Positions 5,147 to 9,240 of a stretch of DNA of 64,000 bases are shown here, piece after piece (positions within the stretch are counted from its first letter, which is position 1; each line of letters opens with the position of its first letter). The stretch is taken from NCBI GenBank assembly GCA_031274925.1, contig JAISPL010000006.1, forward strand, positions 124,001 through 188,000, given 5' to 3'. A program made the translations under genes and the position numbers. The notes beneath the pieces were generated by a model, which was not told the origin of the DNA, ran no database searches, and worked only from the letters and a program-made list of their open reading frames with translations. This DNA is from Syntrophobacterales bacterium. GTDB lineage: Bacteria > Desulfobacterota > Syntrophorhabdia > Syntrophorhabdales > Syntrophorhabdaceae.

Positions 5147-5174
5147 AAAAATATTGAAAGTTTTCAATATTTTT
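5147..5174. promoter_or_regulatory. Perfect 13-bp palindrome, probable operator
   Basis: Two 13-nt arms (5147-5159 and 5162-5174, core AATATTGAAA / TTTCAATATT) are separated by only GT. The palindrome ends 2 nt before the -35 hexamer of the next promoter, the usual place for an activator or repressor site. No candidate regulator gene lies next to it, so the cognate protein would act from elsewhere. Confidence 0.6.
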
Positions 5175-5176
5175 TA

Positions 5177-5204
5177 TTGACATACTCATAATGCGTGGTA
5201 TGCT
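5177..5204 (+). promoter_or_regulatory. Sigma-70 type promoter for the DUF2589 operon
   Basis: TTGACA (5177-5182), a 16-bp spacer and TATGCT (5199-5204). Predicted transcription start is near 5211, giving a leader of about 29 nt before the ATG at 5240. One of the best promoter matches in the window. Confidence 0.7.
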
Positions 5205-5239
5205 CTCGTAGTAAGTCAAAAACTGAAAGGGGGAAAAGA

Positions 5240-6148
5240 ATGGCAGAACCGGGTAAAGAACTATCAAGCATTGACTTCAAGAACCTCATCGGGGGACCAC
5301 TCATCGCGGTCGTTGAAGCACAAGCGCAGGCAGCAATGAGCACGGTCAACTTCATTCGAGCGGTTGGCTTCAAACCACCGACAAAACAAGATGAGAATGA
5401 CGATCCGGGGAACCTGCCGACCACCGGCGATCCGATTTATGTGGTCTTCAAGTATCCCAAGGAGATCTCTCCGTATGAGCCGGCAACCGAGTACTCCATC
5501 TCCGTCACAGTGACCAATCCGGGCAGCGGTTACACGGCGCCCAAAGTCACCATTTCTGGGGGCGGAGGCACCGGTGCTACCGCGACGGCGACCATCGACG
5601 GTGATGGCAAGGTCACAGGTATTGAAGTGACCAGCCAAGGAAAAAACTACAAGACAGCGCCAACGGTTACCATCGGCCACCAAGGTACCGCACCCTCCGG
5701 AGCCGTAACGGCAACGGCAGAGGTCGTGTTCACAGAACCAAAGGCGGCGTCTCCCGCGGTGTGGCAGGAGATGAAACTGGAAGTGCCCATGCTCAGCATC
5801 GTGCCCATCCCGTACCTCCGGGTGGATGAGGTCACCATCGACTTCAACGCAAAGATCAACTCCATGCAGACATACGAGTACACAAGTTCCTACGGGGTTA
5901 AAACGGACTCCTCCGTGTCGGGCAGCGCCGGTTTCCTTTTCGCCAAGGCCTCGGCATCTTTCAAGTGCTCCACGTCCTACCAGAGCCAATCCAAGTCCAC
6001 GGGCCAGGTGGAGAGGACATACTCCCTCGCCATCCATGTCAGAGCCGTTCAGGACGAACTGCCAGGCGGAATGGAGAAGATCTTGGGCATCCTGGAAGAC
6101 GCGATAAAGGCGCAGCCCGCCTCCGCGCCAAAGGAAATCAAGGTATAA
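5240..6148 (+). CDS. DUF2589-type protein with inserted fibre-like repeats
   Basis: A 302-residue protein of unknown function. The N-terminus ([10 protein letters not shown]...[13 protein letters not shown]) and the later block with [20 protein letters not shown] match my memory of the DUF2589 family. The two conserved blocks are split by a Gly/Thr-rich insert at about residues 91-165, made of two degenerate ~36-residue repeats ([16 protein letters not shown] and a decayed second copy), a pattern better known from phage tail fibres and adhesins. There is no signal peptide. The ATG at 5240 follows AAAGGGGG; longer in-frame starts would lie in the promoter. First gene of a three-gene operon whose other members are also unidentified. 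Family call moderately firm, function unknown. Confidence 0.75.
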
Positions 6149-6186
6149 TGTAGTGCGCGAACCGTTTTTTACTTATGTATGCTTCT

Positions 6187-6228
6187 TGCTGAGGGGTCTT
6201 GCGGTTTATGTGACAAGACCCCTCAGCA
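6187..6228 (+). promoter_or_regulatory. 15-bp perfect intercistronic hairpin
   Basis: Arms 6187-6201 (TGCTGAGGGGTCTTG) and 6214-6228 are exact reverse complements around a 12-nt loop. It sits between the DUF2589 stop (6148) and the AAGGGGG ribosome site of the next gene. There is no U-run after it, so it is unlikely to be a simple intrinsic terminator. A role in protecting the first message's 3' end, or in setting different expression levels for genes 1 and 2, is inference. Confidence 0.65.
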
Positions 6229-6248
6229 GTGATTAAGGGGGAAATAAC

Positions 6249-7061
6249 TTGCCAGACCTTTCTGAGTTTATCGGTGCTATAGTACAGGAGACGGCTAGGG
6301 CAAGGATGCTTTCCGATCTTGAGTCGATCCGCATTGCAGAGACCTATTATCAGGACATGTATCTCAAGAATCTGCCGATACCGCACTTCAAGATGCCCGA
6401 GGTGACCATTGAGATGCCTGTGGCGGTCAAACAGATAAACCCTCCCGACGGCAGTGTGACCAACAGTACGCTGCTCAGCAAGATGAGGACGCGCATCAAA
6501 GACGACATGAACAAGTTTTTGTTGCGGGCGCTCCTTGCTCTCAAACAGGACGCGTTGCTGGCAAAGGGTCTTACGTTGCGGACGTTACCGAACCGAACGG
6601 CCAAGTTGGTCAGCGCCCAAGAGACAGAGCTGGCCAAACGGGTGACGGCCTCCTGCCAGAGCATTGTCGATGTTGTCTTCAAGAACAAGGACTACACGGA
6701 CGCGAACACCATGCCACTGCGACTGACGCGGTTGGCTGATGATTTGGAAATCATGCTGTCGCGGGAACTGACGGCAAACTATCTGGACTACATCGGAACC
6801 GAAAAAGGCAAGGTCAACGAGGATGTGCTGAACAGCATCCTGCGCATGTCCCGGGAGATGTTCCTTGATAGCGTGACGTTTCTGATGAAGGTGGACGAGA
6901 CTACGCTGGAGATCATCAGCGGTACGACGGATCTGATCAATCTGGGTGATATCAAGTATCTGACCACAATAAAGATCACCATGCGCGAACAGGATTACGA
7001 ATGGACCATAGGCGAGGGTGTCGATGGCGGTGTTGAAGAGCGCCGTCTGATGGTAGAATGA
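6249..7061 (+). CDS. Unknown protein, second gene of DUF2589 operon
   Basis: 270 residues from a TTG start at 6249, set by AAGGGGG at 6235-6241. I do not recognise a named domain. The N-terminal ~60 residues (ARARMLSDLESIRIAETYY then PIPHFKMPEVTIEMP) combine a helix with a Pro-rich beta segment that resembles the PIPYLRV block of the upstream gene. The remainder looks helical and then beta, with no membrane segment and no signal peptide. The same ribosome-site style and direction as the flanking genes indicate one operon. It may bind or assemble with the DUF2589 protein (inference). Confidence 0.8.
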   Translation: MPDLSEFIGAIVQETARARMLSDLESIRIAETYYQDMYLKNLPIPHFKMPEVTIEMPVAVKQINPPDGSVTNSTLLSKMRTRIKDDMNKFLLRALLALKQDALLAKGLTLRTLPNRTAKLVSAQETELAKRVTASCQSIVDVVFKNKDYTDANTMPLRLTRLADDLEIMLSRELTANYLDYIGTEKGKVNEDVLNSILRMSREMFLDSVTFLMKVDETTLEIISGTTDLINLGDIKYLTTIKITMREQDYEWTIGEGVDGGVEERRLMVE

Positions 7062-7082
7062 TGCGAATAAGGGGGCATACAT

Positions 7083-7667
7083 TTGATATTGTACACGATT
7101 CTGGTGGAGTTGGACTCCGTTTTGTCTGAAACTGCACCCCTTATTGACCTATACTCGAATAAAGAACTGTCCTTTTATGGGAAGTCCGTAAAATGGTTCG
7201 AGAAGCTGGAAAAGCTTTCGAATGACAACAATTGGCCCATCAAAGCCGAGATTGCTTCTCTGCGCGGTCGGATCGTCACGGCGTCCAGGATGCAATCGGA
7301 CGATGTCTTTGCGTGGATGCCGAAGTCCAAAAACCGCAGGCGCGCCAAGGAGGCGCTGACGGTCGAATGCATAAGCACCGCCGTCAGCCGGTTGATGGAG
7401 TTTGTACAGAAGGACAGGGAGTTACAAGCGGAGGCCGCCAATCTATTACGACAAGTATTATCGGTCGCCATCTCAAAAGGACTGGTGGAACCACGCCCAA
7501 AAGCCGCGATAGACAGCGCGTTTATCACCCACAGCTGGCGCATGGCAGCGTCTGATCCGGAATTGACGAAGATGTGCGCTCACATTGTCGGTTTGGTTGG
7601 CGCCTATAATGCGTATATGTTGTTTGACAAGGCGTTTGGAGATATATTTATCAATGGGCACTGTTGA
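7083..7667 (+). CDS. Unknown protein, third gene of DUF2589 operon
   Basis: 194 residues, largely alpha-helical by composition, with no recognised domain, signal peptide or membrane span. The start is TTG at 7083 with AAGGGGG at 7069-7075 (7 nt spacing), the same site used by the gene before it, 21 nt upstream. There is a basic stretch (SKNRRRAKEA) near residue 83. Likely co-expressed with the two upstream genes; function unknown. Confidence 0.75.
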   Translation: MILYTILVELDSVLSETAPLIDLYSNKELSFYGKSVKWFEKLEKLSNDNNWPIKAEIASLRGRIVTASRMQSDDVFAWMPKSKNRRRAKEALTVECISTAVSRLMEFVQKDRELQAEAANLLRQVLSVAISKGLVEPRPKAAIDSAFITHSWRMAASDPELTKMCAHIVGLVGAYNAYMLFDKAFGDIFINGHC

Positions 7668-7890: not shown

Positions 7891-8098
7891 CGCGCACGAA
7901 CATGCTATTTCCAACTGTCTGCAAGCCGAAAGAACGAGTTCATATATTAAAGTACCCGCAAGTAAGATAACGAGCGTTTTTTCACAATTTCATCCGCTAG
8001 AACAGAATTCAAAAAAATCAGTAAAAAAATGAATTTTTAATGAAATGTCATTTGACCAATTCCTATTTATGGATTATGTTTACGAAGGAGATGACTCA

Positions 8099-8503
8099 AT
8101 GAAAAAATTAACGATTTGCTTCCTCGCGCTGCTGGTCTTAGCAGCAGCATCTGTCGCTTTTGCAGCGCCTTTCCTGGTGAGTAACCCATATCCGGCCAAA
8201 AGAACTACGCCCTCGCAATTTTTGATAACGATAAACGAAAAAACCGAAACATCAATACCGGCGAAGAATGAGGATGGCTCCGTTTATCTGAAGTACGACC
8301 TCGGCGGCCTGTCAGATGGCACATACACGGTCTACGTCAAGGCTATCAATAAAAAAGGGGTCGAGTCATCCCCTTCTGTCTATTCTTTTATAAAAACGGG
8401 TTCCATGGTGGAAGCCTTCATACCTCCGACACCTAAGGAAAAACGAAACCCGAGCAGAAGTTCTCTCACATACAAAAACTATCCCGGGTATATAAACAGA
8501 TAG
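8099..8503 (+). CDS. Small exported protein with FN3-like core
   Basis: 134 residues. A classical signal peptide (MKKLTICFLALLVLAAASVAFA) is predicted to be cut near residue 22. The mature part contains a short beta-sandwich-like segment (YDLGGLSDGTYTVYVKAINKKG), reminiscent of a fibronectin type III strand pattern, followed by a basic Pro-rich tail. The ATG at 8099 follows GAAGGAG at 8083-8089; an upstream in-frame ATG has no ribosome site. It is separated from the DUF2589 operon by 430 bp, so it may be independent. Function unknown. Confidence 0.75.
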   Translation: MKKLTICFLALLVLAAASVAFAAPFLVSNPYPAKRTTPSQFLITINEKTETSIPAKNEDGSVYLKYDLGGLSDGTYTVYVKAINKKGVESSPSVYSFIKTGSMVEAFIPPTPKEKRNPSRSSLTYKNYPGYINR

Positions 8504-8815
8504 CGTTACCATACAGAAAATTTTCTTGCCGTCCCTTTTCAGGAAAAGGTAATCTGGCAATGACTTCCTTAAACTGCCCCTTGAGCCAACCCCAAAAGTG
8601 TTTGATGAGGTTCGTCTCCTAAGGGTATGGCGGTAGATTGCTACCCTATCAGCAAGAGCATACAGTCTGTTTTTGTGATGAAACGAAGCGTTATCCATGA
8701 CAATAACCGTGCTTTCGGCACATGGTCAGATTCAAGCCATGCCTAAAACGTGCCCTTGTACTGCATGGTGAAGTAATGCTTTAAGCTGCGACAATCCCAG
8801 TTCGTCTGAATTTTC
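8500..8815 (-). pseudogene. IS630-family transposase remnant
   Basis: On the minus strand the DDE-transposase signatures are plain: VIVMDNASFHHKNRLYALAD, then in another frame LPPYP-stop-ETNLIKHFWGWLK (usual family form LPPYSPELNPIE.FW..LK). Several frameshifts and stops separate the pieces, and the N-terminal part is missing. This is a dead fragment, not an active element; terminal inverted repeats were not found. Confidence 0.75.
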
Positions 8816-8825
8816 GGAGAGCATT

Positions 8826-9240
8826 ACCTAATATATATAGATAGGCAGTTTGCTGCAACGAGAAGAGAAGAATTGGTTTGTAGAGGTAACAGCATGCCAA
8901 ATACGAAGTGTAAGGTCAGCCATAAGCTCTTATCACCTTGGTACGCCGTGTAAATATGACGAGGTGATGGCGAGTACTGCTGTTGTCTGTGGGCTTTGCC
9001 GACGATATGGCGTTCAGGCGGCAGCGCTTTAAGCAAAGGCATCCCAATTAAAAGTACAATTCATTAAGCGCTTCGCTTTGTCATAGAGGTTGCAGTATCA
9101 CGACCACCGAGTATCCAGGCCACAATTCTCCGTGTGTGCTATGGCGGGGGTAAGTCGTCTGCCAAATTCCAGTGGTGGTGCGAACAATGTATGCACAAAG
9201 CGCATGGCGAGAGGAATCTTAAAGGGCTGCCAAGGAAAGT
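8826..9240 (-). pseudogene. IS1-family transposase (InsB-like) remnant
   Basis: Minus-strand pieces in changing frames give RRIVAWILGGRDTAT, NWDAFA / KALPPERHIVGKAH, DNSSTRHHLVIFTRRTKVI and ELMADLTLRIWHAVTS. In this order they match the C-terminal two thirds of IS1-type transposases (typically WDAFAKVLPPERHVIGK...DNSNTRHHLGR.TRRTKVVS). At least three frameshifts are present and no intact copy exists in the window. Confidence 0.75.

Follow-up and report, generated by a model that had tools for sequence, protein, structure and literature searches.

A three-gene cassette headed by a DUF2589 protein is conserved across Bacteria and Archaea

DUF2589 (PF11655) is a protein family of unknown function whose entry is silent on a three-gene unit, on the third gene described below, on an intercistronic hairpin, and on a domain inserted into the protein; family members outside the subfamily reported here lack genes 2 and 3. 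A search of the open-access literature returned one passing mention of DUF2589. In Archaeoglobus fulgidus, the DUF2589-related genes AF0414-AF0417 are induced when lactate is the electron donor (PMC3949148).

Other described systems resemble individual features of this locus. Domain I of the T4 tail-sheath protein gp18 protrudes outward from the sheath and makes no inter-subunit contacts (PMC3004832); a segment of gene 1 resembles this domain in its predicted fold and is likewise inserted in a loop, but the rest of gene 1 matches no sheath protein. The window does not contain the DUF805b RNA (RF02914), a candidate cis-regulatory element; the corresponding site holds a promoter and an AT-rich palindrome instead. 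Holin-endolysin and bacteriocin release systems may be similar in that an apparently non-enzymatic partner lies near unsecreted, interchangeable wall hydrolases, but in our case no transmembrane-helix holin was seen by eye, the hydrolase is usually not adjacent to the triad, and nothing in those systems corresponds to genes 2 and 3. Aerolysin-type beta-pore-formers have a long amphipathic beta hairpin whose tip is hydrophobic, as is predicted for gene 1, and several appeared in a fold search of the gene 1 model at non-significant levels (E above 0.8), whereas gene 1 has no significant fold or sequence match to them and, by eye, no signal peptide.

The locus analyzed here belongs to a Syntrophobacterales bacterium, and the term window denotes the whole 64,000-nucleotide stretch of DNA that was analyzed. 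It contains the following features.

5147..5174, no strand assigned: perfect palindrome, possible operator, with 13-nt arms (5147-5159 and 5162-5174) and a 2-nt loop
5177..5204, forward strand: sigma-70-type promoter with extended TG (TTGACA at 5177-5182, 16-nt spacer, TATGCT at 5199-5204)
5227-5233, 6235-6241, and 7069-7075, forward strand: ribosome site AAGGGGG, three copies, 6-7 nt 5' of ATG 5240, TTG 6249, and TTG 7083
5240..6148, forward strand: gene 1, DUF2589 protein of 302 aa with an ATG start (PF11655, E 2.5e-26), conserved core of the cassette
5498..5734, forward strand: inserted beta domain of gene 1 (residues 87-165), resembling T4 gp18 tail-sheath domain I
5828..6049, forward strand: predicted long amphipathic beta hairpin of gene 1 (residues 197-270; strands 197-215 and 252-270)
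6187..6228, forward strand: intercistronic RNA hairpin between genes 1 and 2, with perfect 15-nt arms
6249..7061, forward strand: gene 2, 270 aa, TTG start, probable distant relative of DUF2589, helical and variable in its middle part
7083..7667, forward strand: gene 3, 194 aa, TTG start, matching no known family; the third cassette gene in 71 loci

The preliminary description of this region had reported a single type of ribosome site shared by the three genes, a TTG start in both gene 2 and gene 3, and a built-in hairpin, all of which are present. It had also reported an operator-like palindrome, and the perfect inverted repeat exists as an AT-rich element upstream of the promoter; its reading as an operator is of the consensus type, and we regard that role as a guess. 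When an equivalent was sought in the loci of relatives, none had one, and the palindrome was therefore rejected as a family-wide operator. The promoter had been called strong. The element itself is there, with 10 of 12 consensus matches in its hexamers and a TG preceding the second, and its strength stands as a consensus match only; promoter-like sites are not commoner in the region than in shuffled sequences (4 found, 3.3 expected). The nearest relative of the cassette (L090) carries a TTGACA...GATACGAT box at the same position before gene 1.

The annotated starts are right: the alignment of the window's gene 2 product with 63 homologues places its M1 at their own first residue, which is nearly invariant, and the last residue, E270, is invariant. 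Because all three products are conserved across phyla, they are more than chance open reading frames. An Rfam scan of the window gave one match, at chance level. After gene 3, the next gene in the same orientation is 8045-8503; its small product apparently has a signal peptide and matches Ig-like/fn3-type domains weakly (E 0.003 to 0.05), short of the cut-offs. Decayed remains resembling a DDE transposase (MDNASFHHKNRLYALADRV..., recognized by eye) lie a few hundred bases 3' of the cassette, at 8366-8698 on the reverse strand and at roughly 8500-9050.

The preliminary description had ranked this region as the window's best candidate for an undescribed system and had made conserved synteny in distant genomes a point to check. 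Gene 1 alone was used as a query against 84,980 species genomes, and the downstream genes were then inspected. Homologues of genes 2 and 3 follow gene 1 in the same order and on the same strand in 71 of the 80 loci anchored on gene 1, with median intergenic gaps of 62 nt (genes 1-2) and 7 nt (genes 2-3); several of the loci that lack a full triad end at a contig edge. These loci come from over a dozen phyla of bacteria, among them Pseudomonadota, Bacteroidota, Thermodesulfobacteriota, Bacillota, Chlorobiota, Chloroflexota, Actinomycetota, and Planctomycetota, and from several archaeal lineages (Methanosarcinaceae, Methanotrichaceae, Methanocellales, Methanoperedens, and Bathyarchaeota), one archaeal copy being placed on a 2.15-Mb contig.

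Because the seed patterns behind the first sample favored close relatives, a second sample was drawn with the Pfam profile from sampled genomes, two of its loci coming from genomes whose triad was already known. In this mostly HMM-drawn sample, genes 2 and 3 were present in 15 of 16 loci of close relatives (gene 1 scores above 150 bits) and in 0 of 10 loci with gene 1 scores below 120 bits, a split by which the triad defines a subfamily of DUF2589. Conservation is strong in gene 1, and evolution is fast in genes 2 and 3; the distances among the three proteins nevertheless correlate (Mantel rho 0.60-0.69, p 0.001), as expected if the three genes travel together. The flanks are chromosomal, mostly housekeeping, and differ between genomes, which bears out the earlier statement that no neighboring gene explains the function; a constant fourth gene was rejected on the same grounds.

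We conclude that the interval 5240-7667 holds one copy of a three-gene cassette that is self-contained and has spread horizontally among Bacteria and Archaea, and its standing as a conserved gene system undescribed in the open-access literature is well supported, in agreement with the preliminary ranking. As separate observations, Desulfotignum and Geopsychrobacter (L043 2636-3358, L046, and L048 2685-3401) have a fourth gene of 238-240 aa, assigned to no family, that starts ∼36 nt beyond gene 3, and tandem paralogues of the DUF2589 or gene 2 type, often without gene 3, occur in L025, L093, L104, L179, and L189; in L179 the paralogue cluster is followed by a 105-aa protein with paired CxxC motifs.

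The distribution of the cassette is patchy. DUF2589 was found in 7 of 297 sampled genomes of the window's phylum, and gene 2 was found in none of ∼37 other genomes of the organism's family, from which absence we conclude that the cassette was acquired sideways. The nearest gene 1 (74-80% identity) is in L090, a Dehalococcoidia bin whose DNA matches that of the window at 69% from upstream of the gene 1 start to the end of gene 3. Gene 1 is 91-92% identical among Smithella, Thiodiazotropha, and one Methanotrichaceae archaeon, and protein identity between archaeal and bacterial copies reaches 80-92%. Archaeal sequences are interspersed with bacterial ones in the tree, where well-supported branches force only two changes. 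Binning errors may account for single cases, not for all of them.

The earlier assignment of gene 1 to DUF2589 is confirmed by a score of 93.3 bits against PF11655 (cut-off 23). Structure predictions of the single proteins, which the preliminary description had advised, were obtained for genes 1 and 2 (mean pLDDT 77.9 and 87.7, respectively). The gene 1 product has no sequence relatives in the PDB; in the model, a helix at residues 13-43 precedes the inserted beta domain, which is followed by a two-strand hairpin. The insert matches PHROG virion families (E down to 5e-13) and aligns by VIA-align with residues 99-186 of 3foa_C over 74 residues (2.7 Å, 24% identity) with a Z of 6.4. This is below the tool's safe level but far higher than the scores of unrelated proteins, the next being about 3.3, and the PHROG sequence matches back it. 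At this site other members carry either the insert or a Pro/Ala-rich linker, and most DUF2589 members have no insert. In a second fold comparison of gene 1, the insert filled the match list.

The predicted hairpin shows strict hydrophobic/polar alternation along both strands in the aligned columns of 48 sequences, and its tip is hydrophobic (GWLWG, GWGWG, GFLFA, and similar). Its distal part is unpacked in the monomer model (pLDDT 33-43, tip below 50). The alignments of genes 1, 2, and 3 contain no catalytic signature.

The preliminary description had placed the products of genes 2 and 3 in no known family. This holds for gene 3, whereas a remote kinship with DUF2589 is probable for gene 2. 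Searches of both proteins against Pfam, NCBIfam, PHROG, and PADLOC gave no match or none that was credible, and no clear homology to a known phage or metabolic family, the second point that the preliminary description had raised, was found for either. The window's gene 2 does not match PF11655, and 2 of 64 gene 2 homologues match it weakly (best E 0.047). The family HMMs of genes 1 and 2 find each other with E values of 3e-6 to 3e-5 in a set of ∼70 sequences; the profile alignment spans 36-38 columns and is convincing only around the shared motif (I/V)P-x-x-R-(V/I)-x-E-x-T-I-D, which suggests rather than proves kinship over the full length. Median pairwise identity in gene 2 is 41% and 31% at the two ends and 12% in the middle. 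The gene 2 model has no clear match among PDB folds: globins were rejected (TM below 0.2), the helical part of Cse1 (best Z 6.9) fell within helical-bundle noise, and a profile match of the variable helical middle to coronavirus nsp8 (E 0.07) was taken as chance. Gene 3 shows no kinship to genes 1 or 2 and has one invariant Trp, W38; its profile matches, none better than E 0.08, were likewise taken as chance.

A hairpin in the gap between genes 1 and 2 characterizes the family. In the window, the folding energy of this gap has a z of -3.5, and among the 48 loci whose gap measures 35 nt or more, z is below -2 in 32 and below -3 in 21. The stem is often GCAGGTAAAGGG...CCCTTTACCTGC, in bacteria and archaea alike. 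Some operons need their first product in excess, and by analogy with these the gap hairpins point to gene 1 as a major, probably overproduced subunit.

A second RNA element lies upstream of gene 1 in other genomes. Many triads of Bacteroidota and two of gammaproteobacteria have RF02914 ahead of gene 1, at a distance of 45-50 nt; this RNA or its core pattern precedes gene 1 in L067, L075, L078, L083, L088-L092, L094-L096, L101, L193, and L196, and every copy that the pattern search detected in those fetched loci preceded a DUF2589 gene. Elsewhere in nine genomes with this arrangement, further copies precede a muramidase (on a different contig), a LuxR-type regulator, lipoproteins, unknowns, a peptide whose leader scores over the NCBIfam cut-off as class I lanthipeptide, and three or four more small peptides of similar look.

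In most triads, including that of the window, no hydrolase is adjacent. Among DUF2589 genes at large, several lie near a Muramidase (PF11860), GH19 enzymes (twice), a phage lysozyme, PG_binding proteins, an Amidase_3 together with a Tle1-like phospholipase, or a GH46+PG_binding protein; PG_binding/peptidase-like genes (by eye) and patatins also occur. The neighboring hydrolases have no obvious signal peptide (by eye), and much of this evidence comes from more distant DUF2589 clusters without genes 2 and 3. Co-occurrence of DUF2589 with one muramidase family is marginal (4 of 19 DUF2589 genomes, Fisher p 0.036).

Other neighbors were also recorded. A 183-aa gene with an HExxH motif (AKHEQDHVLDNQQ, by eye) and no Pfam match begins ∼50 nt after gene 3 in L027 (10193-10741) and L034 (10055-10603) and is shorter or cut off in L026 and L028. 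In L016/L197 (G297:C10), an operon with sheath, tube, and baseplate-like genes of a contractile injection system (by eye) lies ∼3.5 kb from a DUF2589 gene, beyond which there is a PG-binding protein. In L174 (8-5041; G510:C1), a 1677-aa DUF4157/eCIS-core-like protein (by eye) adjoins a DUF2589 cluster and a GH19 enzyme.

Taking the predicted hairpin, the overproduction signal, and the hydrolase links together, we tentatively propose that gene 1 forms an oligomer that works with hydrolases at membranes and that genes 2 and 3 have accessory roles; we regard this reading as possible rather than probable. Gene 1 would be the major, overproduced subunit, each copy offering its long amphipathic beta hairpin, hydrophobic at the tip, and in some lineages the exposed phage-sheath-type beta domain would decorate the outside. 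The faster-evolving genes 2 and 3 would provide a cap, an adaptor, or assembly factors. The assembly would perforate or dock on a membrane, and unsecreted hydrolases, chiefly peptidoglycan hydrolases, could thereby reach the cell wall, either the producer's own (release by lysis) or a competitor's (antagonism). For the window's cassette, with no hydrolase gene adjacent, the partner would be encoded elsewhere. The occurrence of amphipathic hairpins in soluble proteins and in tubes counts against a pore, and the lactate induction in Archaeoglobus (PMC3949148) does not suggest a weapon.

The same hairpin, disordered in the monomer model, would also suit a purely structural polymer, in which gene 1 builds a tube, fiber, or shell with the optional insert on the outside, gene 2 caps it, and gene 3 aids assembly, with neither perforation nor hydrolase cargo. 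A strongly conserved subunit that is probably made in excess, an insert of an outward-facing type, and the lack of catalytic signatures in all three alignments agree with such a polymer, which we nonetheless consider somewhat unlikely, as it leaves unexplained both the repeated proximity to unrelated wall hydrolases and the RNA element common to a muramidase and a lanthipeptide-type peptide.

An ordinary intracellular stress or physiology operon, unconnected with walls or membranes, would account for the variable neighbors, for the lack of a secretion signal recognizable by eye, and for the lactate response of the Archaeoglobus genes (PMC3949148). The patchy distribution, transfer between domains, rapid change of genes 2 and 3, and the hydrolase and peptide links all argue in the other direction and make this explanation unlikely.

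A role of the cassette in extracellular contractile injection systems or tailocins, as a component or as cargo, is suggested by the sheath-like insert and by the G297 and G510 clusters described above. The sheath family PF04984 is, however, absent from the window's genome and from G171 and G071, triad genomes of the same phylum, and is below cut-off or absent in 13 of 18 triad genomes; this explanation is largely refuted in general and very improbable, although individual distant clusters could still conform to it. An origin as a prophage remnant or as genes borne by phages is scarcely credible: the insert does occur in phage virion proteins, a 4-kb metagenomic "phage" scaffold (MT839761) has DUF2589-type genes, and an IMG/VR contig (L107) carries a gene 1 relative that ends at the edge of the fetched stretch, but that relative is the only one from 2.9 million viral contigs, with the other three matches confined to the insert, and the triads sit in chromosomal surroundings. 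A known anti-phage defense system was rejected, since PADLOC gave only a chance-level Cas8b match (E 0.015).

Returning to the membrane-acting oligomer, its broadest form would be a new class of membrane-perforating or translocating assembly, common to Bacteria and Archaea, with interchangeable hydrolases as the cargo or the released product and with fast-evolving accessory proteins that tune it; we put this forward as a doubtful extension. A unit that keeps a fixed order across two domains, has spread sideways, and has no described function is itself a well-defined target for study, and its activity is useful in very different cells. If the hydrolase link is true, the cassette would represent a machine for delivery or lysis of a new kind, and the orphan RNA RF02914 would gain a physiological setting that joins peptides, a muramidase, and the DUF2589 cassette.
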